From assembly GCF_900142085.1 (NCBI RefSeq), contig NZ_FQZQ01000003.1, positions 62,001-126,000 on the forward strand: a stretch of 64,000 nucleotides of DNA, read 5' to 3'. The position numbers and the translations under genes are program-made. Source of the DNA: Shimia gijangensis. Its GTDB lineage: Bacteria; Pseudomonadota; Alphaproteobacteria; Rhodobacterales; Rhodobacteraceae. Positions 2,056 through 33,485 of the stretch are shown one piece after another. Under the pieces are notes generated by a model. It was not told the DNA's origin, did not search any database, and saw nothing but the letters and a program-made list of their open reading frames with translations. Each line of letters opens with the position of its first letter. Within the stretch, counting starts at the first letter, position 1.

Positions 2056-4745
2056 TGGCGACACTGAATATTCTGGTTGCAGTCTGCCTGATCTACGTAA
2101 CCTTTCTGTTCGTCGTTGCCTTTGCCGCAGAGCGTGCCGCCAAACAGGGGCACGGCGGCTGGTTGCGCTCTCCCTTGGTATATACGTTATCGCTGTCGAT
2201 CTATTGCACAGCCTGGACGTTTTATGGTGCCGTCGGCTATGCGGCGCGCTCGGGGCTTGAATACCTAACCATCTATATTGGCCCGTCACTTGTGATGGTA
2301 GGGTGGTGGTGGATATTGCGTAAGCTGGTGCGCATTGGGCGTAGCCAGCGGGTGACGTCTATCGCCGACCTGATTTCTTCGCGATATGGCAAATCAAACC
2401 TTTTGGCCGTTGGGGTGACCCTTTTGGCGGTGATTGGCACCACGCCTTACATTGCTTTGCAGCTTCAGTCCGTCACACTAAGCTTTGATGTGTTCAGTGG
2501 TTCAAACGAAGTGGCCGGCAGCATTGTAGACCGCGATTCCACCGCTCTTTGGGTGGCCATGGGGTTGACGTTGTTCACCATCGTGTTCGGCACTCGCAAT
2601 CTGGATGTCAACGAGCGTCACCATGGCGTCGTGATCGCCATTGCGGTCGAAGCTATTGTAAAACTGTTTGCTCTGCTGGCCGTTGGGGTTTTTGTGGTCT
2701 GGGGCCTTGGTGGCGGCCTGAGCGAAACCTTACAGCGAATCGATGCCTCAGAAATCGGCATGTGGGAAATGCGCGGAGATCGTTGGGCCTCGCTGATTTT
2801 CCTGTCTGCTGCGGCATTTTTATGCCTGCCGCGTATGTTTCAGGTGATGGTGGTCGAAAATGATCACGAAAGCTATCTGCGCACCGCATCCTGGGCCTTT
2901 CCGGCCTATCTTATGGTGATGAGCCTGTTTGTCGTGCCGATTGCGGTGTTGGGGTTGGATATTCTGCCCGAGGGCTCAAACCCTGACCTTTTCGTGCTGA
3001 CTTTGCCACTGGCCACAGGCCGGGAAGGATTGGCGATGCTGTCATTCCTCGGTGGGTTTTCGTCTGCCACATCTATGGTGATTGTGGCGTCTCTGGCTTT
3101 GTCGACGATGGTGTCCAACCACATCGTGATGCCAATCTGGCTGTCTGCGACTGGCGGGGGGGCCAAAATCTCGGGCGACGTGCGCAACGTGGTGATCCTG
3201 TCGCGCCGCCTGTCGATTGCCGCAGTTGTCGCGCTTGGCTATCTCTATTTCCGGCTGTCCGGAGGCGGCACGGCACTGGCCTCGATCGGTCTGATTTCCT
3301 TTGCAGGTGTTGCCCAGTTCCTGCCGGTTCTTCTGGGCGGCATCTTTTGGCGCGGGGCGACACGCACAGGGGCCTTTGCAGGCCTGAGCGTCGGCTTTCT
3401 GGTCTGGGCCTTTGCTTTGTTGTTGCCCAGCTTTGGCAGCGGCGTTCTGATTTCACAAAGTGTCATGGACAATGGATTGTTCGGATTGGCCTGGCTGCGA
3501 CCACAAGCCTTTTTTGGTATTGAGGGTATGGATCCTTTGGTGCACGCGGTGATGTGGTCTATCTCTTTGAACACGTTGGTGTTTTTTGTGTCTTCTCTGG
3601 TTGGGTTTCCGTCACCGCTTGAGCGTTTGCAAGGCGCGCAGTTTGTTAATGTGTACGAACACTCCCGTCGCCCACAAGGCTGGAGCGGCAGTGCTGCGCA
3701 AAGCGAAGACCTGATGATTATGGCACAGCGCATTCTGGGTGCGCGCGAGGCACAAAACTTGTTCGAGCGCGAGGCACAAAGACAGGGTGTCAGCGGGTAT
3801 CTTCCTGATCCAAGCCCGGATTTCCTGCAGATACTTGAGCGCGAGTTGTCCGGCTCAGTGGGCGCTGCAACGGCGCATGCCATGATTGGCCAGATTGTCG
3901 GCGGGGCGTCGGTTTCGGTGCGGGATTTGATGGCGGTGGCGGATGAAACCGCTCAGATGATGGAATACTCAAGCAAGTTGGAAGCAAAGTCCGAAGAACA
4001 GGCCCGCACAGCCCGTCAACTTCGTCAGGCCAATGAAAAGCTTACGCAATTGTCCGTGCAAAAGGATGCGTTCCTTAGCCAGGTCAGCCATGAATTGCGC
4101 ACGCCCATGACGTCCATACGGGCCTTTTCGGAAATTTTACGCGACAGCGAAAAATTGAGCGGTCAGGAAAAAGTCAAATATTCATCAATTATTCACGACG
4201 AGGCGATCCGCCTGACGCGACTTTTGGATGATCTTCTGGATCTAAGTGTTCTTGAAAACGGGCAGGTCAATCTCAACACCCAAACCGGGGTGTTGGTGGA
4301 TGTTCTTGACCACGCGATTTCCTCTGCCCTAACGGGGAGCAGTGACACGCGTTTGACCGTACGCCGCCGCAAGAGCCACGAGGTTGTTCATATGACCACC
4401 GATCTTGACCGGTTGGCACAGGTGTTCATCAATCTGATCGGAAATGCCCAAAAATACTGTGATGCCGATCCGGCAGAATTGACCATCAATGCAAGCCTCA
4501 GCCAAGGTCAGATGCTGGTCGATTTCATCGACAATGGATCAGGAATCAGTAAAGAAGATCAGGCGGTTATCTTTGAAAAATTTGCGCGTGTTGGTGAAAT
4601 GAAGGCCGGAGGTGCTGGGCTTGGGCTGGCGATCTGTCGCGAGATTATGGCGCGGCTGGGTGGGTCTGTCAGCTATCTGCCGGGGCAGGGTGGCGCGGCG
4701 TTTCGGGTGATCCTGCCTTTGGCCGCCTCAAAGACGACCCTTTAA
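2055..4745 (+). CDS. Hybrid sodium/solute symporter - sensor histidine kinase
   Basis: An 896-residue membrane protein. Roughly residues 1-520 form a multi-helix SLC5/SSS-type symporter (for example GTTPYIALQLQ and the FLGGFSSATSMV helix). A linker with a coiled coil follows (about 620-665), then HisKA with phosphoacceptor His679 (SHELRTPMTSI) and an HATPase domain with NLIGNAQKY (N box), DNGSG (G1) and GAGLGLAI (G2). This architecture resembles CrbS/ActS-type kinases, which sense or transport acetate and control acetate use. It overlaps the upstream small membrane protein by TGATG. The receiver at 1424-1792 is the likely partner. The substrate is not determinable here; acetate or another short acid is inferred from the acyl-CoA-type regulator next door. 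Confidence 0.88.
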   Translation: MATLNILVAVCLIYVTFLFVVAFAAERAAKQGHGGWLRSPLVYTLSLSIYCTAWTFYGAVGYAARSGLEYLTIYIGPSLVMVGWWWILRKLVRIGRSQRVTSIADLISSRYGKSNLLAVGVTLLAVIGTTPYIALQLQSVTLSFDVFSGSNEVAGSIVDRDSTALWVAMGLTLFTIVFGTRNLDVNERHHGVVIAIAVEAIVKLFALLAVGVFVVWGLGGGLSETLQRIDASEIGMWEMRGDRWASLIFLSAAAFLCLPRMFQVMVVENDHESYLRTASWAFPAYLMVMSLFVVPIAVLGLDILPEGSNPDLFVLTLPLATGREGLAMLSFLGGFSSATSMVIVASLALSTMVSNHIVMPIWLSATGGGAKISGDVRNVVILSRRLSIAAVVALGYLYFRLSGGGTALASIGLISFAGVAQFLPVLLGGIFWRGATRTGAFAGLSVGFLVWAFALLLPSFGSGVLISQSVMDNGLFGLAWLRPQAFFGIEGMDPLVHAVMWSISLNTLVFFVSSLVGFPSPLERLQGAQFVNVYEHSRRPQGWSGSAAQSEDLMIMAQRILGAREAQNLFEREAQRQGVSGYLPDPSPDFLQILERELSGSVGAATAHAMIGQIVGGASVSVRDLMAVADETAQMMEYSSKLEAKSEEQARTARQLRQANEKLTQLSVQKDAFLSQVSHELRTPMTSIRAFSEILRDSEKLSGQEKVKYSSIIHDEAIRLTRLLDDLLDLSVLENGQVNLNTQTGVLVDVLDHAISSALTGSSDTRLTVRRRKSHEVVHMTTDLDRLAQVFINLIGNAQKYCDADPAELTINASLSQGQMLVDFIDNGSGISKEDQAVIFEKFARVGEMKAGGAGLGLAICREIMARLGGSVSYLPGQGGAAFRVILPLAASKTTL

Positions 4746-4817
4746 GAGCAAAATAAAGGATCTGGTAACCGGTTTCGCCTAATTTCAAAGAATGGCTTTG
4801 AATCGGACACGCGATCT

Positions 4818-5888
4818 ATGACAAGCGACATTGCACAGTCGACTTTGCGCAGGATGATGGGGGATGCACGCGCACATCCGCACGCCCCGTCAGTCTCTCG
4901 TCTCTTGCGTCTGGCCTTGGAACGCACCGCAGAAGATTTGTTGGGCCTGACGTTTGAAGTGACATCCATGCGGCAAAGCCAATGCGCGTTGGACATGGTT
5001 GTGTCCCGATTTCCGCAAAACGGGATGATTGCCCTGCTTGAGGGCGAAGCACAGGGCGCCGCAGTCGTTGAGACGGGGCTGCTCAGTGGTCTTGTTGAGT
5101 TTCAGACGATTGGCCGGGTGCTGCCCAATCTGGCTGCTGGGCGCAGTGCGACCCGTGTTGATGCAGCCCTGGTCGCACCATTTTTGGATGCAGCCCTCAC
5201 CGCATTTGATGACTCTGTGACCGGTCAGGGACAGGCACCATGGGCCAGGGGCTATGTTTTTGGGGCCATGGTTGCCGATGTGCGCACGTTGTTGCTGGCG
5301 TTGAATGCAGAGTCTTTTCATGTTTTTGAAATCGAAGTGTCACTTTGTAACGGCGCGCGTCAGGGCACGCTGACTTTGGTTTTTGCCGAACAAGAGGACG
5401 CATCGCAAACAACCGACGCGGCGACCGGGCGCTCTGAGGGGGGCGATGCGTTGCGTCAGGCGGTGCTTTCATCCCCGGCGGCCTTCCATGCAGTCATCGG
5501 CCAATTGTCGATCCCACTGCAACATCTGCAAGAGTTGAAAGTTGGCGATACACTTAGCCTTCCAGCAAAAGCTTTGCGTGAAGTCAGATTGGAAGCTGTT
5601 GGAGGCGACTACATCATTTCAGCCAACCTTGGACAGCTTAATGGCTTTCGGGCCGTACGCCTGAAAGGGGCACAGCCGGCGGCAGCAACCAATACACAAG
5701 CGGGAAGGGTTAAGATCGCTGATGTTGCGACTGACGCGCCAGGCCCCATGGTCACAGAAAACCCGCCGCAACAGAACGCGGCGGGTCAAGAATTGCCGGT
5801 TGATCCAGGCGAAGACCTTGAAGACCTAGACGATTTGGATACCTTCCTGAATGACGCGCAATCCGACACAGATATGGAACTGGCCTGA
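4818..5888 (+). CDS. FliM/FliN-like protein with C-terminal SpoA domain
   Basis: This 356-residue protein ends with a SpoA (surface presentation of antigens) domain at about residues 230-285, where segments such as PLQHLQELKVGDTLSLP and GQLNGFRAVRLKG are typical of FliM/FliN C-termini. The N-terminal part looks like a weak FliM-type middle domain. The tail (about 320-356) is very acidic (EDLEDLDDLDTF). No flagellar genes are nearby; it follows the symporter-kinase by 72 bases on the same strand. It may be a stray motor-switch subunit, or a SpoA protein reused with the receiver-only regulator, since FliM proteins bind CheY-like receivers. The second idea is speculation based on context. Confidence 0.72.
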   Translation: MTSDIAQSTLRRMMGDARAHPHAPSVSRLLRLALERTAEDLLGLTFEVTSMRQSQCALDMVVSRFPQNGMIALLEGEAQGAAVVETGLLSGLVEFQTIGRVLPNLAAGRSATRVDAALVAPFLDAALTAFDDSVTGQGQAPWARGYVFGAMVADVRTLLLALNAESFHVFEIEVSLCNGARQGTLTLVFAEQEDASQTTDAATGRSEGGDALRQAVLSSPAAFHAVIGQLSIPLQHLQELKVGDTLSLPAKALREVRLEAVGGDYIISANLGQLNGFRAVRLKGAQPAAATNTQAGRVKIADVATDAPGPMVTENPPQQNAAGQELPVDPGEDLEDLDDLDTFLNDAQSDTDMELA

Positions 5889-6344: not shown

Positions 6345-6779
6345 TTACTCTGCCGGCACTGCGGTGTCCAGCCGGGCACGCACTTTGGGGGCTGCGAACA
6401 TGCCCGCCAACATCGCAGCAAAGAAGACCCAATGCGGCCATCCGCCATAGCTGAGTGAGGCAACTGAAGGGCCAGGGCACAGACCTGCCAGGCCCCATCC
6501 AGCCCCAAACAGAACAGAGCCTAAAACTAGGTTGCGCCCCAACTTCGGTTCGGCCGGTGCAGGGAAATCCCCTCCGACAAGAGGTTTGCGCCCCCGGGTA
6601 AAGGCCCAGGCAACCGCCATAGGAAGAATGGCGCCGCCCATGACAAAGGCCAACGTTGGGTCCCAGTGACCAAACACGTCCAGCCAGCCCTGTACTTTGG
6701 AGGTGTCAGTCATGCCCGAAATGAACAGACCTGCACCAAACAGGCCGCCTGCGATGAATGCAAAAACAAGACGCTGCAT
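6345..6779 (-). CDS. YeeE/YedE-family sulfur transporter half (DUF6691-type)
   Basis: A 144-residue integral membrane protein with about four hydrophobic segments. It contains GLFISGMTDTSKVQGWLD and GAGWGLAGLCPGPS; the latter holds the conserved cysteine found in YeeE/YedE transporters, which move thiosulfate or related sulfur compounds. Its start overlaps the stop of the next upstream gene by 4 bases (6779-6781), so the two half-size proteins are coupled and probably form one transporter, as in the paired PmpA/PmpB arrangement. I set the start at MQRLVFAF; the longer frame only covers the neighbour's end. The exact substrate cannot be read from the sequence. Confidence 0.87.
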   Translation of the reverse strand: MQRLVFAFIAGGLFGAGLFISGMTDTSKVQGWLDVFGHWDPTLAFVMGGAILPMAVAWAFTRGRKPLVGGDFPAPAEPKLGRNLVLGSVLFGAGWGLAGLCPGPSVASLSYGGWPHWVFFAAMLAGMFAAPKVRARLDTAVPAE

Positions 6780-7216
6780 CAGATCACTCCCAGAATGTGG
6801 CGGAACAGGACAACGGTCAGCCCGCCTGCCATGATATAGAAAACCGTGGCGACCATGCCGCGCAATGACAGCCGCGAGATACCGCAGACCCCGTGGCCGG
6901 ATGTGCACCCATTGGCGATGCGCGTCCCAATCCCCACCAAAAGACCTGCTGCGACCAGAACTGCAATGTTGGTCGTCGCATGGGTTTCAAACGGACGATA
7001 CAAAGGCTTAATTAGTATCGGCAACAGGAAGACACCGATCAGAAACACAATGCGTTCCGCTGAACTGTTGCGGCCTGATCCATCCACCAGTCCCCCAATG
7101 ATGCCACTGGCGCCCATAATGCGACCATTGGCGAGCAGAAAGACTGCCCCTCCGGTGCCAATCAGAAGACCTCCAATCAGCCCCCAAACCCAATCGACTG
7201 GGATCATTTCTAACAT
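6779..7216 (-). CDS. YeeE/YedE-family sulfur transporter half
   Basis: A 145-residue membrane protein with the second conserved cysteine signature, NGCTSGHGVCGISRLS, and hydrophobic segments around residues 10-28, 55-72, 82-98 and 120-142. Together with the downstream 144-residue partner it makes up the equivalent of one full-length YeeE/YedE thiosulfate or sulfur-compound transporter. It sits 74 bases downstream of the persulfide dioxygenase gene on the same strand. Import of a reduced sulfur species or export of a product are both possible. The family assignment is firm; the direction and substrate are not. Confidence 0.88.
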   Translation of the reverse strand: MLEMIPVDWVWGLIGGLLIGTGGAVFLLANGRIMGASGIIGGLVDGSGRNSSAERIVFLIGVFLLPILIKPLYRPFETHATTNIAVLVAAGLLVGIGTRIANGCTSGHGVCGISRLSLRGMVATVFYIMAGGLTVVLFRHILGVI

Positions 7217-7290
7217 TGCGTTTCCTTTTCTTGCCCCAAGAGGGTGTTAAAACCGGCGCGTCTGGTTCGCAACAGATCGCGCCCAGTAAT

Positions 7291-8154
7291 TTAGATTTTG
7301 TTCACGGGGACTTTCAGGAACACATCGCCCTGATCGTCCGGCTCGGGCATCTGGCCCGCGCGCATGTTGACCTGCAGCGATGGTATGATCAGTTTGGGCA
7401 TCGCCAATGTGGCATCCCGCGCATCGCGCATCTCGATGAATGTGCCCTTATCCTTGCCTTCGCCAACGTGAATGTTGCGGGCTTTTTGCTCGGCCACTGT
7501 GGTTTCCCAGGCGAATTCATCACGTCCCGGTGCTTTATAGTCATGGCCCACAAAAATGCGGGTCTCGTCCGGCAAGGCGAGGATTTTCTGAATTGAGGCA
7601 AAAAGGGTTTCAGACGACCCCCCCGGAAAATCACAACGTGCCGTGCCAAAGTCGGGCATGAACAAAGTATCTCCGACAAAGGCGGCATCGCCGATCACAT
7701 AAGTCAGGCAAGCGGGCGTATGGCCGGGCGTGTGCAGCACGTCGGCGCGCATCTGCCCAATCATCAGGCTATCGCCTTCAGTGAACAATTGGTCAAACTG
7801 AGACCCATCGCGCTGAAACTCGGTACCTTCGTTAAAGACCTTGCCAAAGGTGTCCTGCACCATCGTGATGTTTTCACCAATGCCGATCTTACCGCCTACT
7901 TTTTCCTGAATATAGGGCGCGGCAGATAGGTGGTCTGCATGCACATGACTTTCCAATAACCACTCGACCTTCAATCCATTGTCCTGAACATAGGCAATGA
8001 CCTGATCAGCGGACCGGGTGTCGGTGCGACCTGACGAATAGTCAAAATCCAGTACGCTATCGATGATCGCACAAGCCGTGCTATCAGGGTCTTTTACGAT
8101 GAACGAGATCGTGTTTGTTGCATCGTCAAAAAAGGCGGTCACTTCGGGTGTCAT
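7291..8154 (-). CDS. ETHE1-like persulfide dioxygenase (metallo-beta-lactamase fold)
   Basis: A 287-residue metallo-hydrolase-fold protein with His70-x-His72-x-Asp74-His75 (HVHADH), a later HTPGHT and FVGHDY, and the GDTLF aspartate. These fit the ETHE1/Blh group, which binds one iron and oxidises glutathione persulfide to sulfite. The open frame extends far upstream, but GGAGG at 8162-8166 lies 7 bases before the ATG at 8154, and that start gives the normal family length. It is the first gene of the operon with the YeeE/YedE pair and the Blh-type phosphatase. The upstream region holds an inverted repeat and an FNR-type box. No BigR-like ArsR regulator is adjacent. Confidence 0.88.
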   Translation of the reverse strand: MTPEVTAFFDDATNTISFIVKDPDSTACAIIDSVLDFDYSSGRTDTRSADQVIAYVQDNGLKVEWLLESHVHADHLSAAPYIQEKVGGKIGIGENITMVQDTFGKVFNEGTEFQRDGSQFDQLFTEGDSLMIGQMRADVLHTPGHTPACLTYVIGDAAFVGDTLFMPDFGTARCDFPGGSSETLFASIQKILALPDETRIFVGHDYKAPGRDEFAWETTVAEQKARNIHVGEGKDKGTFIEMRDARDATLAMPKLIIPSLQVNMRAGQMPEPDDQGDVFLKVPVNKI

Positions 8155-8174
8155 CGGGGAATCCTCCATTTGAA

Positions 8175-8206
8175 TGAAACATATATTGTTTTGCGCATGT
8201 GTTTCA
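8175..8206. promoter_or_regulatory. Inverted repeat upstream of the sulfur operon, candidate operator
   Basis: TGAAACA (8175-8181) and TGTTTCA (8200-8206) are perfect inverted repeats 18 bases apart, 21 bases upstream of the dioxygenase start codon. The AT-rich spacer holds a second near-palindrome (AACA-tatat-TGTT). BigR-type ArsR repressors control similar operons elsewhere, but I cannot match this sequence to a known BigR site. Confidence 0.4.
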
Positions 8207-8220
8207 AGCCCGAATACTGA

Positions 8221-8234
8221 TTGACCTAAATCAA
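8221..8234. promoter_or_regulatory. FNR/FnrL-type binding site
   Basis: TTGACctaaATCAA fits the FNR/Dnr dyad (TTGAY-N4-RTCAA) exactly. It lies in the divergent region, 67 bases upstream of the persulfide dioxygenase start and 54 bases upstream of the DksA/TraR-like start. Oxygen- or nitric-oxide-responsive control of one or both transcription units is likely. Confidence 0.65.
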
Positions 8235-8287
8235 GGCTGATCACACGAGGGTATGTCAGTGTCTTAACGCAATTTAAGGATGAGGCG

Positions 8288-8617
8288 ATGACCGATATCA
8301 AAACCCGAAAAACCGCTCTTTTGAAACGTTTGTCCGAATTGGATTCGCGTCTGCATGCCATTGAAGCCGAGCTGGATGTGCCAATCTCAAAAGACTGGGA
8401 AGAGTCGGCGGTTGAGCGGGAAGGTGATGAAGTTCTCGAGCAATTGGGCCAATCCGGCCAGGATGAGATTTTGAGAATTCGTGCGGCATTGCAGCGAATT
8501 CGGGACGAAGAGTACGGATTTTGTGCCCGCTGTGGTGAAGATATTTCATCAGAGCGTCTTGATGTTCTGCCAGATACACCTTTGTGCATGAAATGCGCAT
8601 CCGCCGTAGCGCATTGA
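8288..8617 (+). CDS. TraR/DksA-family zinc-finger regulator
   Basis: A 109-residue protein with an N-terminal coiled-coil region and a C-terminal four-cysteine zinc finger (C79, C82, C100, C103; CARCGEDI and PLCMKC). DksA/TraR proteins enter the RNA polymerase secondary channel and change promoter choice, often in stress. The coiled-coil tip is acidic (KDWEESAVERE) but lacks the standard DxxDxA motif of DksA, so its activity may differ. It is divergent from the persulfide operon and shares the FNR-type box region. A 71-residue gene follows 22 bases downstream, probably in the same transcript. Confidence 0.88.
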   Translation: MTDIKTRKTALLKRLSELDSRLHAIEAELDVPISKDWEESAVEREGDEVLEQLGQSGQDEILRIRAALQRIRDEEYGFCARCGEDISSERLDVLPDTPLCMKCASAVAH

Positions 8618-8639
8618 GATTTGATTTGAGGAGGAAGAC

Positions 8640-8855
8640 ATGACTGTTGATGAATTGCTAAAGCAAGCCCGGAACCTGTCCGAAGAAATCAAAGGGACCG
8701 AAGGCCAGGAGCGTTACGATCTGCATCAAAAACTGCACCGCGCGATCGAAAACATTCGTCTGCAAGGCGGGCATGTGCCTGCGTATCTGCGGGATCTGGA
8801 TCTTGATCTGGTCGACGAAGAGGTCGAAGACGTGTTTGACAACATGCCGGTATAA
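8640..8855 (+). CDS. Conserved small protein of unknown function, DksA-linked
   Basis: A 71-residue soluble, acidic, mostly helical protein (MTVDELLKQARNL at the start, LDLDLVDEEVEDVFD near the end). A strong GAGGAGG ribosome site precedes the ATG. It follows the DksA/TraR-like gene by 22 bases and is followed by a clear terminator, so the two form a short operon. I do not recognise a named domain and give no function. Confidence 0.75.
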   Translation: MTVDELLKQARNLSEEIKGTEGQERYDLHQKLHRAIENIRLQGGHVPAYLRDLDLDLVDEEVEDVFDNMPV

Positions 8856-8872
8856 TTCGGGCAGAAGAGTTT

Positions 8873-8912
8873 GAAAAAGGGCGCGCCTGGGCAACCATGC
8901 GCGCCTTTTTCG
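8873..8912 (+). terminator. Rho-independent terminator after the DksA-like operon
   Basis: An A-rich stretch and GGGCGCGC pair with GCGCGCC followed by five T residues, with one bulged base and a loop of about 12 bases. Confidence 0.8.
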
Positions 8913-9029
8913 ATCCGGCGCTTGCGTGGTGCCGGTTTCCGCCTAAAGTTACAAAAAACCATGCGACGCTGGATCAGGGCCCACAAACGGTGCCAACTCA
9001 GACCTGCAGGCGCAATGAAGGGGGGCGTG

Positions 9030-11123
9030 ATGACACAGACCGTGCTTTATGAAGTCGAGGATGGCATTGCCATTCTGAGTGTGAACAACCCACCAGCAAA
9101 TACTCTGACTGCGACCGTTCGGGCCGGGCTTGTTGAGCGATTGGACCAGGCGTCGGACGACCCGGAAGTCAAAGCGATTATTCTTCGGGGGCATCAGCGT
9201 ACCTTTCCTTCCGAGATCGACATTAAGCAAATTGGACACGCCGAAGCGGGACCGGAGTTGTCAGAAGTTTGTGATCGAATTGAGGCGGCAACCAAGCCGG
9301 TCATCGCTGTCATCCATGGCGCGGCTCTTAGTGGTGGATTTGAATTGGCGTTGGCTGCACATTACCGGGTAGCCAATCGCGGAGCCTGGTTTGGTTTGCC
9401 CGATGTGACTTTGGGCTTGGTGCCCGGGGCAGGCGGTACCCAACGCGCGCCAAGGCTACTTGGGGCTGATCTGGCGCTGAACCTGATGGTGCCAGGCAAA
9501 GCAATGTCCGCAAACGCCCCCGAGGCGGCGCGCTTTCTGGATGAGGTCTTTAAGGGCGATTTGTGGACAGGTGCCAAACACTTCGTCCAAAACCTGATCG
9601 CGCGCGGCACCGGGCCGCGTCCAACTCAAGAGATTCGAACCGGGTTTCAGGACGTTGCAGCCTATCAAGCCGCCATTGCATCGCACCGTAAAGCGATTTC
9701 AACGGCGCCGGAGGAGGCGCCCCAGGAAATTTTGCGCTGTGTCGAAGCCGCGATATTGCTGCCGTTTGAGCAGGGTTTGGCTTTTGAGCGATCCGCTTTT
9801 GAGCAATGCGTGGCCTCTGATCAGTCAGCGGCTTTGCGTCACGTCTATTTTTCCGAGCGGCGCGCCGCCAAATTTCAAGAGTTGCGGACCGGTCGGGTGC
9901 GCGATCTGCGCAAGATCGGAATTGTCGGTGGCGGAGAGCGCGGCTGCAGTCTGGCCGAGGGGTGCCTGGAGGCTGGATTTGAAGTGGTTCTGGCCGAGAA
10001 GGACGACGCTGCTCTTGAGAAGGCAACAGCCCGGATCAATACACATTTCTCACAGGCCGAAGACGTGGGGCAGATTTCCTCGCGCGCACGTCAGAGTCAG
10101 TCTGGGCGGTTGAGCGGGACCTTAGAGTTTCAGGATTTGTCCGAGTGCGATTTGGTTTTCGAGGCCGTCCCTGATGATCTCGCGCGCAAACTGGCGGTCT
10201 TTGGGCGCCTTGACGGGGTTGTAAAAGAGGGCGCAATCTTGGTGACCACAACGGCAAATCCAGACTTAGCCCGGATCGCTGATGAAACAGGCGCGCCCGC
10301 GGATGTTTTGGGCATGCATTTCTATACATCCGTCAAAGACTCCCGGCTGGTCGAAATCGTTGCCGGACCGGAAACCTCTGCAGATGCTGTGGCCACGGGG
10401 GTGATTTTGGCCAAACGCCTGCGCAAAACGCCGATTAAGGCTGGTTTGGTGGACGGATTTGTCGGCCAGCGCCTGATGGCGGCTTATCGCTTTGCGGCAG
10501 ACCTTATGCTGGAACAGGGCGCGACGCCGTATATCGTGGACGAAGCCATGAAATCTTATGGTATGGCGTTGGGGCCTTATCGGCAGCTTGATTACGAAGG
10601 GCTGGATGTTTCCTGGGCCCGGCGTCAGCGATTGGCCGTGGCTGGCGGGCCTGCCGGTGATCACGTGGCCGTCGGTGATGTTCTTTGCAACGCCGGTCGG
10701 TTGGGACGCAAAGTTGGCAAGGGGTATTACCGTTATGACTCACCAACACAGCACGGTGACAACGACCCCGATGTGATAGACCTGATCCGTGGCGAACGCG
10801 ATCGCAAAGGTATACGCGCACGTCGTGTTCTTGCGAAAGAAATTCAGCGCTGTTGTCTGGCGGCTTTGGTCAATGAAGGGGCGCGGCTGCTGAGGGAAGG
10901 CGTCGCAGTGAGCCCATCCGATATTGATATGGTGATGATCCAGGGATGTGGTTTTCCACGCTGGCGTGGCGGTCCGATGATGGCGGCAGATCAGGCGGGT
11001 CTTCTGGACCTTCAAAACGACTTGCGTGACTATGCACAGCAAGACGCCTGGTTTTGGACGCCGGAACCTGTGCTTGAGGACCTTATTAAGAATGGGCGGC
11101 GATTTTCAGACCTGAATGACTAG
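9030..11123 (+). CDS. Bifunctional enoyl-CoA hydratase/3-hydroxyacyl-CoA dehydrogenase (FadB/FadJ-like)
   Basis: A 697-residue beta-oxidation enzyme. The N-terminal crotonase domain (about 1-190) has Glu105 (GGFELALA), but the second catalytic position is Asp125 (GLPDVTLG) where Glu is usual. The oxyanion segment RTFPSEIDI also departs from the common AGADI. The dehydrogenase part starts at about residue 295 with the dinucleotide site GIVGGGERG and keeps the catalytic pair His430 (GMHF) and Glu442 (LVEIV). I chose the ATG at 9030, with GGGGGG just upstream; the longer frame runs back through the terminator. No thiolase is adjacent. The dehydrogenase half looks active; hydratase activity may be altered. 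Confidence 0.9.
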   Translation: MTQTVLYEVEDGIAILSVNNPPANTLTATVRAGLVERLDQASDDPEVKAIILRGHQRTFPSEIDIKQIGHAEAGPELSEVCDRIEAATKPVIAVIHGAALSGGFELALAAHYRVANRGAWFGLPDVTLGLVPGAGGTQRAPRLLGADLALNLMVPGKAMSANAPEAARFLDEVFKGDLWTGAKHFVQNLIARGTGPRPTQEIRTGFQDVAAYQAAIASHRKAISTAPEEAPQEILRCVEAAILLPFEQGLAFERSAFEQCVASDQSAALRHVYFSERRAAKFQELRTGRVRDLRKIGIVGGGERGCSLAEGCLEAGFEVVLAEKDDAALEKATARINTHFSQAEDVGQISSRARQSQSGRLSGTLEFQDLSECDLVFEAVPDDLARKLAVFGRLDGVVKEGAILVTTTANPDLARIADETGAPADVLGMHFYTSVKDSRLVEIVAGPETSADAVATGVILAKRLRKTPIKAGLVDGFVGQRLMAAYRFAADLMLEQGATPYIVDEAMKSYGMALGPYRQLDYEGLDVSWARRQRLAVAGGPAGDHVAVGDVLCNAGRLGRKVGKGYYRYDSPTQHGDNDPDVIDLIRGERDRKGIRARRVLAKEIQRCCLAALVNEGARLLREGVAVSPSDIDMVMIQGCGFPRWRGGPMMAADQAGLLDLQNDLRDYAQQDAWFWTPEPVLEDLIKNGRRFSDLND

Positions 11124-30461: not shown

Positions 30462-31568
30462 ATGTTGAAGGCCAAAACAGGCAAAACGCAATGGCGCGCT
30501 TTGGGGGCCATGTCGGGGACTTCGCTGGACGGAGTCGATGCGGCTGTGATTGAGACCGACGGGACACAAATTTTTGAATTTGGCGAAAGTGCGTACCGCG
30601 AGTACTCCTCTGACGAACGCGCAGTGTTGACCAAAGCCCTTGGGCAATGGGGTGGAGAGAATGCACTGGCGGCAGCCCAAGTGGTTGAAAACGCTCATGT
30701 TGACGTCTTGCAGGGGTTCGACGAGATCGATCTGGTTGGGTTTCACGGCCAAACTCTGGCCCATGAACCACGTGGACGCGGGACATGCCAAGTGGGCGAT
30801 GGACGGGTTCTGGCCGAGGCGCTGCAAAGCCCGGTGGTCTGGGATTTTCGCACTGCTGATGTGAAGCTCGGCGGAGAAGGAGCGCCTTTGGCTCCTTTTT
30901 TTCATTTTGCCTGTGCCAAATGGATCGGCTTAAAAGACCCGGTTTGTTTTCTGAACCTTGGGGGCGTTGGCAACATCACATGGATTGATCCATCAAAATC
31001 TGCACCAGAAGAGGCCGGGGCTTTGCTGGCATTTGACACTGGTCCAGCCAATGCGCCGGTCAATGACCTGATGCGCGAACGTTTGGGGTTGACCTATGAT
31101 AAAAGTGGGGCCGTTGCGATGGACGGCACAGTGGAAACCGGAGCATTGGAGTTGTTTCTGGCAGAGCCCTATTTTTCAAGAATCCCCCCGAAGTCGCTGG
31201 ATCGAAATGATTTTTCTGAAATGATTAATCTTGTCCGTGAGTTGTCAAATGCAGATGCCGCCGCCACATTGACGGCAATGTGTGCCGCAGGTGTGGCTGC
31301 GGGTATGCAACATTTACCCAGCGCGCCAACCCAGGTTTTCGTTACCGGAGGCGGGCGAAAAAATCCGGTGCTGATGGAAATGCTGCGGGTCAGTCTTGAG
31401 TGCCCCGTCGTGACCGTAGAGGGCGTCGGGCTGGATGGGGATATGCTGGAAGCGCAGGCCTTTGCCTATTTGGCGGTGCGTGTGGCCCGTGGGTTACCAA
31501 CATCGGGGCCGATGACAACCGGTGTACGGGCTCTTGTGGGTGGTGGGGTTGTGACTTCGCCGGGTTGA
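30462..31568 (+). CDS. anmK: Anhydro-N-acetylmuramic acid kinase
   Basis: A 368-residue sugar kinase of peptidoglycan recycling. It phosphorylates 1,6-anhydro-MurNAc with ring opening. The N-terminal [15 protein letters not shown], the middle [21 protein letters not shown] and the C-terminal [10 protein letters not shown] are the family motifs. AAAGGAAAAGG precedes the ATG. It is divergent from tyrS. The DNA past its stop is an island scar (31569-32486). Confidence 0.95.
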
Positions 31569-31693: not shown

Positions 31694-31900
31694 TCACAAA
31701 GCGTGGCCAATCTTACCCTTCCAGACGGTCAACTGCGGAAAAACAGCCACCATTTCAGTGGGTGGAGTTTCCGTAATATCTTCTTTTAGGACGATGAAAT
31801 CGGCCCATTTTCCAGCTTTCAATGCCCCTGTCCCATGGTCCATTCCTAAAGAACGCGCACCATTGACGGTGAAAATCGGCGGAGCCGACGACATCGAGAT
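31694..31900 (-). pseudogene. C-terminal fragment of an amidohydrolase
   Basis: About 66 codons match the end of YtcJ-like amidohydrolases: IFTVNGARSLGMDHGTG, LKAGKWADFIVL and a final VWKGKIGH. All of the catalytic domain is missing. Upstream it runs directly into the integrase remnant, marking a deletion junction at about 31896-31960. Confidence 0.7.
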
Positions 31901-32324
31901 AGCCTAATCAGGAGCCGAAACGCCGGGGTAGTCGTTGCGGGGGATCGAGTGGCGGGGCCGTGCTGACCTTCAGCCACTTGAGAGGCAAACTCCATAAGAT
32001 CACGTGCTAGAAGCGAAGTAACCTCAAAGTCGGTCACCTCAAAACGTTTGATCGCCCTAAGAACTTGGGTTTTGGTTTTCCCCATGTCTTTACGGTTCCT
32101 TTCAACTACCTTGTCGATTAGCTCGCCAGCTGTTGTCCGTTCACGATCACTAATTAGGGTTCCTTTGTCGTATTCGGCTTCGATGCGCTTGATCCAAGCA
32201 TTGGTTGTTGTCTTTCTGGAGAAGTTGGCCGAGTTCCTGTAGACCACTTTACATCTTGTTTCTTAATGATTTGTGCTCGGTACTTGATGCCCGATTTTGT
32301 CTTGCGTTCAACGATAGTGCCCAT
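31900..32324 (-). pseudogene. Frameshifted 5' part of a dusA-associated tyrosine integrase
   Basis: From ATG 32324 the frame reads MGTIVERKTKSGIKYRAQII and then breaks at 32252/32253. Adding one base (ggtaaagtg instead of gtaaagtg) continues it into VVYRNSANFSRKTTTNAWIK and the core-binding region ERTTAGELIDKVVERN...LARDLMEFASQVAEG. The catalytic half is absent. The start lies 163 bases upstream of dusA in divergent orientation, the usual position for integrases that target the 5' end of dusA. Confidence 0.78.
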
Positions 32325-32343
32325 TATTTCTCACTTCTTATTT

Positions 32344-32411
32344 TTGGCATACCGCAGATATAGGAGGGCGGTATGCCAAGCTCCAAGCGGGTATGCCAAA
32401 CGGTATGCCAA
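32344..32411. repeat. Four copies of GGTATGCCAA between integrase remnant and dusA
   Basis: One inverted copy (TTGGCATACC, 32344-32353) and three direct copies of GGTATGCCAA (32370-32379, 32390-32399, 32402-32411). The first and second form a 12-base inverted repeat with the flanking GC. They look like integrase or excisionase arm-type sites left from a lost island. Confidence 0.75.
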
Positions 32412-32486: not shown

Positions 32487-33485
32487 ATGACAGATAAGCC
32501 CTTAATAACAAAGGCCGCGAGGCTGTCCGTCGCCCCGATGATGGATTGGACAGATCGCCATTGTCGGTATCTGCACCGGTTGTTGTCACGCGAGGCCCTG
32601 CTTTATACGGAAATGGTCACGGCTCCGGCATTGGTGCGGGGTGGCGCCTTGCATCTGTTGGACTTCAATGTCGAAGAACACCCCGTCGCTTTGCAACTTG
32701 GCGGCTCGGATCCCAAAGAACTGGCCGAGGCCACGCGGCTGGGTGGCGCGCATGGCTATGATGAGATCAACCTCAACGTCGGCTGCCCGTCGGATCGTGT
32801 GCAATCAGGCACCTTTGGTGCGGTTCTGATGAAAACGCCGGATTTGGTCGCCGAATGTGTGTCAGCCATGAACGAAGCGACTCCGGTTGAGATCACGGTC
32901 AAGTGTCGCATCGGGGTGGACGATCAGGAACCGCGCGATGTGCTGCCTGATTTCCTTGAAAAAGTCAGCGCTGCAGGCGTGCGCCGGTTCACGATCCATG
33001 CCCGCAAGGCGTGGCTGCAAGGCCTCAGCCCCAAGGAAAACCGCGATATCCCTCCGTTGGATTACCCTTTGGTACACGAGATGAAGGCGGCCTTTCCTGA
33101 CCTGCATCTTTCGGTCAATGGCGGAGTCACGTCATTGCAGCAGGCCGAAGAGTTTTTGGCCGCGGGTCTGGACGGTGTGATGATCGGGCGCTCGACCTAT
33201 CACAACCCGGCCGACATTCTGCTGGGGGTCGACACGCAAGTATTCGGCAAGGGCCACAGAACAACCGCAGAGCAAACTGTGCTCGACATGTTGCCCTATA
33301 TTGAAAACCACCTTGCCGAGGGTGGGCGTCTGCACCAGATTACCCGCCACATGCTGGGGCTGTTTACAGGGCGTCCCGGCGCCCGGATGTGGCGTCGGGT
33401 TTTGTCCGAAGGTGCAACCCGCGACGGTGCAGGCCCCGACCTCGTGTTGCAGGCGCTGGGACATGTCAGTGATATCGCGGCCTGA
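32487..33485 (+). CDS. dusA: tRNA-dihydrouridine(20/20a) synthase DusA
   Basis: A 332-residue flavin enzyme that reduces uridine 20/20a in tRNA. The FMN-binding start RLSVAPMMDWTDRHCR, the catalytic Cys100 (NVGCPSDRVQ) and VNGGV and MIGRSTYHNP near the end are typical of the DusA subgroup. The 5' end is a known insertion hot spot, and a broken integrase lies just upstream. The frame is intact, so the gene either escaped or was rebuilt by the insertion. Confidence 0.95.
   Translation: MTDKPLITKAARLSVAPMMDWTDRHCRYLHRLLSREALLYTEMVTAPALVRGGALHLLDFNVEEHPVALQLGGSDPKELAEATRLGGAHGYDEINLNVGCPSDRVQSGTFGAVLMKTPDLVAECVSAMNEATPVEITVKCRIGVDDQEPRDVLPDFLEKVSAAGVRRFTIHARKAWLQGLSPKENRDIPPLDYPLVHEMKAAFPDLHLSVNGGVTSLQQAEEFLAAGLDGVMIGRSTYHNPADILLGVDTQVFGKGHRTTAEQTVLDMLPYIENHLAEGGRLHQITRHMLGLFTGRPGARMWRRVLSEGATRDGAGPDLVLQALGHVSDIAA

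Follow-up and report, generated by a model that had tools for sequence, protein, structure and literature searches.

Integrase remnant and island junctions at dusA

The window, i.e. the whole 64-kb stretch of DNA that was analysed (C67:62001–126000 of the own genome, G000, a 4.09-Mb draft in 78 contigs that is rated 99.95% complete), contains an intact dusA gene for tRNA-dihydrouridine(20/20a) synthase (32487..33485, plus strand; NCBIfam PRK11815, 480 bits against a cut-off of 269). The 5′ piece of an integrase gene (31930..32324, minus strand, ∼131 codons) is located at the dusA 5′ end and is divergent from dusA. Two minus-strand ORFs, 32324..32154 and 32247..31846, jointly span this one integrase 5′ end. 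The integrase gene begins at 32324. When its DNA is aligned with that of four relatives, a one-base gap at ∼32246–32253 splits the piece, and the homology stops at ∼31930, close to codon 131 out of 360. Over query residues 6–124, the 133-residue ORF shares 54% identity with the intact 360-residue integrase that adjoins dusA in the relative G013 (E 2.8e-33). Both the ORFs and the alignment agree with the first-pass annotation, which had described a broken integrase 5′ piece divergent from dusA with one base lost. The catalytic residues (RHRH and Y) are absent from the piece, the catalytic part having been lost through truncation, and PF00589 is matched by the intact relatives. Searches of Pfam and NCBIfam returned nothing above cut-off for the integrase pieces, and PHROGs returned a single weak match to an unknown family (E 0.00047).

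A contig scan with four integrases identified at least 516 relatives, of which the best 80 were kept. The integrase is divergent from dusA in 72 of these best 80, so the window integrase is a dusA-associated integrase (DAI). This count and the G013 match support the earlier assignment to a special dusA-targeting group, and a comparison of the pieces with DAIs places them within it. Since its catalytic part is missing, the window holds a DAI gene remnant and no working member. NCBIfam returned nothing above cut-off for the intact DAIs tested. The other eight of the best 80 are L138 (at a contig start), L151, L159, L171, L186 (which adjoins metZ), L189, L194 and L205, where the dus neighbor is merely 30% identical to DusA and was taken as dusB. 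Farrugia et al. 2015 (PMC4482086) describe the DAI group together with att sequences of 21 bp and a dusA 5′ end that comes from the island. The window resembles the islands of that paper in having a tyrosine recombinase gene at the dusA 5′ end, a conserved core inside dusA and a start that is putatively of island type, but it keeps one end only and its integrase is broken.

The segment from the dusA start to the att core (32487..32549, plus strand) is probably of island type by comparison with the relative G318. The putative att core itself lies within dusA (32528..32549, plus strand), and in relatives a conserved core is found at both island ends. Over its first 32 bases, dusA matches the integrase-side copy of G318 exactly and the outer copy of G318 almost exactly, as would be expected of island DNA. 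In the own genome, the core has one match at 0–1 mismatch, and two flanking cores are therefore absent. Three 2-mismatch matches (on C36, C63 and C73) were considered as the far att copy and rejected, as their context is unlike a dusA start. The 3′ half of the integrase has no match in the own genome at E ≤ 1e-10, and a second repeat array was not found there. The window contains the end of a dusA-specific genomic island, not an island.

At its truncated end, the integrase adjoins the 3′ end of an amidohydrolase gene (31694..31936, minus strand). A 66-codon ORF (31694–31894) matches PF07969 (E 2e-9), and the homology extends to 31936 across one in-frame TAG, with 53% identity over residues 470–544 of the full-length L120 protein. 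The alignments indicate that the fusion of integrase and amidohydrolase is direct and that the amidohydrolase remnant is itself a pseudogene. The fusion to an amidohydrolase 3′ end noted earlier therefore stands, but its length of 66 codons does not, because the homology reaches past the TAG. The 66-residue piece has matches in 10 of 24 congeners, at just 32–45% identity. Among the family's 294 other genomes, 6 have a match at E ≤ 1e-8 (34–56%). The amidohydrolase may have been either cargo or a chromosomal gene. Other amidohydrolase matches in the own genome were considered as the missing 5′ part; at 22–40% identity, they were taken as paralogues.

Next to this remnant, the left flank carries anmK (30462..31568, plus strand; NCBIfam anmK equivalog). 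Of the 24 congeners, 9 carry both genes on one contig, with no less than 98 kb between anmK and dusA, and the other 15 have them on separate contigs. In the ORF lists of 19 of these 24 congeners, a DUF985 cupin gene is readable downstream of anmK, in several of them one gene further; it was not seen in the lists for L073, L076, L080, L083 and L086. In the own genome, that cupin is on a different contig from anmK. The distance between anmK and dusA in congeners and the location of the cupin on another contig indicate that the left flank arrived by rearrangement. The loss of the island was not a clean excision, which corrects the earlier account. A transposase-like rve domain (PF00665) is located near the cupin of the own genome (L217:2777–3229, on contig C48).

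Repeats in the window and at both ends of intact islands

The gap between the integrase and dusA contains four copies of GGTATGCCAA, each a putative arm site. Copy 1 is inverted (32344..32353, minus strand), and copies 2, 3 and 4 are on the plus strand (32370..32379, 32390..32399 and 32402..32411). The four copies had been counted in the first-pass annotation; they are exact and are the only occurrences in the 64 kb, and the inverted orientation of copy 1 is an addition to that account. When the 162-bp gap was shuffled 5000 times by mononucleotide, no 10-mer reached three copies. Stretches of 163 bp were also slid along the window, and only 5 of these 3192 had at least four copies, all of them overlapping the array in the integrase–dusA gap. 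Relative to the att core in dusA, the copies are at −191, −165, −145 and −133. These places are kept within 2 bases, with 0–3 mismatches, in G215, G216, G013 and G318, and the same holds for decayed older copies in G205 and G318. Relatives with the repeats of the window before dusA thus include three with an intact integrase (G013, G215 and G318) and one with a truncated integrase (G216). As a parallel to the junction in the window, an IS3-family transposase in G216 (NF033516, 243 bits against a cut-off of 160) directly adjoins a shortened integrase of the window's clade that is cut to 273 codons (L102:16742–18410).

In a survey of the genus that covered 25 dusA loci and as much as 550 bp before the core (just 186 bp for L033), GGTATGCC was found upstream of dusA at three loci (the window, G215 and G216), at each of which at least part of an integrase is also present. 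The repeats were not seen without an integrase, and the remaining 22 dusA loci lack GGTATGCC. One integrase among the best 80 relatives is accompanied by three GGTATGCC copies and adjoins metZ, the gene for O-succinylhomoserine sulfhydrylase (L186:1507–4086), so the repeat travels with the integrase and not with dusA or the target. An integrase with another target therefore exists, while dusA as the target of the window's clade is unaffected. The family of the integrase and the repeats of its relatives support the main proposal of the first-pass annotation, i.e. the scar of a dusA-targeting island.

In the intact G318 island, which belongs to the window's clade, the two att cores are 16.0 kb apart. 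At 76 and 87 bp inward from the far core, there are two further copies of the repeat in the opposite orientation; 9 of 875 control stretches of the locus also have two copies, integrase-side stretches included. The same arrangement with a different repeat is present in G199 and G205, in which five GTTTGCA copies are on the integrase side and two are inside the far core. The far pair is 12 bp apart and starts 82–83 bp inside that core. In G199, these seven are the only GTTTGCA copies in 17.4 kb. If one mismatch is allowed, GTTTGCA counts as high as those observed occur in 43 of 844 and 63 of 965 control stretches. Across the nine islands examined, the class repeat has at least one copy at the far end in seven at ≤1 mismatch, and the far ends of G334 and G326 have none at that threshold, so the outcome for far ends is mixed. 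In G328, the observed far-end count is reached by 6 of 45 control stretches. By eye, the far end of G326 contains a tandem GTACCAAGTACCAAC, at least 2 mismatches from the integrase-side repeat of the same island.

The G318 island also carries a Gabija-like defence pair (L210:6097–9773; GajA, E 5e-189; GajB, E 2.5e-179), in which the GajB reading frame stops early and resumes in another ORF. Near the far end of this island (L210:1514–4952), there is a trypsin-like protease (PF13365, E 2.1e-13) together with a weak astacin-like match below cut-off. A similar protease set was seen by eye near the G215 integrase (L101, oriented 6699–10980).

Putative arm sites and the origin of the scar

Lambda integrase binds arm sites with its N-terminal domain and cuts the core with its catalytic domain, and in the Tn916 integrase the arms are likewise bound by the N-terminal domain. 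The intact G013 relative was modelled with 32 sequences (pLDDT 89.6, pTM 0.68), and the model predicts three strands and a helix within residues 3–53, followed by the remaining recombinase. By Z score, its best match is DNA-bound lambda integrase (1z1b; model residues 1–346, Z 18.4, rmsd 5.5, 297 aligned), tied with other rows within 1 Z. In a Foldseek search with the whole model, the Tn1549 integrase is first (E 1.8e-9) and lambda is sixth. When modelled alone, the N-terminal domain yields no Foldseek hit that reaches E ≤ 0.001 (the best is 0.35), and its Z scores are ≤5.9; the arm-binding domain of lambda or Tn916 is not among the matches of this model, a result that excludes nothing. The similarity to lambda integrase and its attP thus comprises the modelled fold over the whole length and the short repeats that flank the core on either side in intact relatives, whereas identity in the structural alignment is 14%, and the repeats, spacing and target are different. 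Tn916 and Tn1549 also differ in target, and the solved Tn1549 fragment (residues 82–397) is without the N-terminal domain. From the domain order and the two-sided repeats, the GGTATGCCAA copies are best read as putative lambda-type arm sites of the integrase.

We propose, with a probability of roughly 0.87, that the window contains the integrase-side end of a dusA-specific island whose body was lost, that the repeats are putative arm sites, and that the remnant is kept by the dusA start. The island would have been inserted into the 5′ end of dusA by site-specific recombination, and dusA would thereby have acquired a new start codon and first codons along with a new upstream region. The N-terminal domain of the integrase would have held the GGTATGCCAA arms and the matching pair just inside the far island end, with the catalytic domain cutting at the core inside dusA in the manner of lambda integrase. 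A later deletion or rearrangement would have joined the integrase, cut near codon 131, to an amidohydrolase 3′ end and placed anmK alongside, with loss of the catalytic domain, the island body, the far arm pair and the far att copy. The deletion and the rearrangement of the left flank may be one event, for which an IS element would be a candidate agent. Precise excision would be impossible now that these parts are gone. As excision could not restore the old dusA start, selection on dusA should keep the island end, and the scar probably persists because the dusA start is in island DNA and the far att copy is gone. The dependence of dusA on the scar is suggested by analogy with a Vibrio island.

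The position of the repeats directly upstream of the integrase gene would also suit operators, bound by an island repressor or by the integrase itself, which would control int, and perhaps dusA, and would have no use in recombination. On the minus strand, copy 1 coincides in part with a promoter-like match (hexamers 32350–32323), but such matches are at chance level (2 found against 0.9, sd 1.1, in shuffles). The repeat is also present just inside the far att core in G318, as is GTTTGCA in G199 and G205, far from int, and we regard a purely regulatory role as unlikely. Regulation and arm binding are nevertheless compatible at the same repeats. That the repeats are a host regulatory element of dusA itself, next to an integrase that is present by chance, would fit their location less than 150 bp from the dusA start. 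This is scarcely credible, however, given that upstream GGTATGCC is lacking at 22 of the 25 dusA loci surveyed in the genus, that different repeats accompany other integrase clades at dusA, and that the L186 repeat is located at metZ.

In a draft of 78 contigs, the integrase–amidohydrolase fusion might also be an assembly or sequencing artefact in a strain that has an intact island or integrase. We consider this very improbable. The draft is 99.95% complete and the junction is within a 286-kb contig; neither the integrase 3′ half (at E ≤ 1e-10) nor a second core was found in the own genome, and the amidohydrolase remnant carries a TAG, as decay predicts. The favored reading of the window remains an island end with putative arm sites, and the scar adds one layer to the record of an integration site that was already known. 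Within its known group, such a scar is nothing unusual, and the clade-specific repeat system is the part that is worth specialist attention. Repeats of this kind provide a means to recognise former dusA islands once most of the integrase is gone.

Repeats of other clades and layers at dusA

Repeats in the gaps of other dusA integrase clades include GGTACAACA, GGTACGACA, GTTACAACA, GGAACAAC, TTTGGTACA and GGTGCTACA, with the class labels assigned by hand. For counting, 58 of the 72 dusA-adjacent loci (from the best 80 of at least 516 relatives) were used, with a gap stretch of ≤240 bp. A 7-mer with at least three copies is present in 37 of the 58 gaps (control mean 3.9, largest 7, in 20 draws), and one with at least four copies in 18 (control mean 0.35, largest 2, in 20 draws). 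The corresponding numbers for 8-mers are 27 (control mean 1.0) and 13 (control 0.15). The other 21 gaps have no 7-mer with at least three copies, and a clear array is absent in most of the long-gap loci.

The similarity of the motifs was compared with that of the integrases. L127, L189 and L194 were left out by hand, L164, L170 and L171 had short proteins, and five were added to give 79 proteins; 46 of these passed the motif filter, and 33 remained after removal of near-duplicates. Across these 33 loci, N-terminal identity and motif similarity are correlated (r 0.27, a value reached in 4 of 2000 permutations), with relatedness controlled just in part. With the catalytic part held constant, the N-terminal correlation is 0.18 (58/2000), and the reverse is 0.06 (539/2000). 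When the middle domain is controlled for instead, the N-terminal correlation is 0.13 against 0.11 for the reverse, so the N-terminal and middle domains are not separated. The repeat thus appears to follow the N-terminal domain weakly.

We see about an even chance that dusA integrases share one chromosomal target and have diversified the language of their arm sites, with each clade reading its own 7–10-base repeat in a set geometry on both sides of the core. Such clade-specific reading would allow islands to stack at one gene, each integrase moving only its own island, and the family would be a natural recognition code between a ∼55-residue domain and DNA. As the tracking of the N-terminal domain is weak and the middle domain performs nearly equally, we do not claim a recognition code. 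If the repeats are indeed read as arms, dusA loci with differing repeats would be ready material on how an arm-binding domain chooses its DNA.

The clade-specific arm sites of dusA integrases seem to be undescribed. In the main text of PMC4482086, the terms 'inverted' and 'GGTATGCC' are absent, and the passages with 'repeat' concern att copies or the protein fold. IMEVchUSA3 and related Vibrio dusA islands (PMC8409611) are mobilised by IncC plasmids and have RdfN as their directionality factor; the term 'arm' is absent from the main text of that paper. No title on arm sites of dusA integrases was found among open-licence PubMed Central papers.

In all three islands for which the outer flank was read (G199, G205 and G318), there is an older decayed scar beyond the far end. 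In G205, a decayed GGTATGCC-clade integrase is accompanied by its repeats and by a displaced dusA start (L106, flipped, ∼4250–5135), all outside the far end of a younger 13.5-kb GTTTGCA island. The older decayed scar outside the far end of G318 is of the window's clade, and the remnant beyond the far end of G199 was judged by eye to be GTGCTAC-like. From these older scars, it seems that the dusA start was replaced again and again, and dusA looks like a site of repeated arrivals. In G211, a genome in which the DAI query matched nothing at E ≤ 1e-10, the region upstream of dusA (L037) contains GTTGCAA matches (a count of 5, with one GTTGCAAC site counted twice), which are perhaps the scar of another clade.
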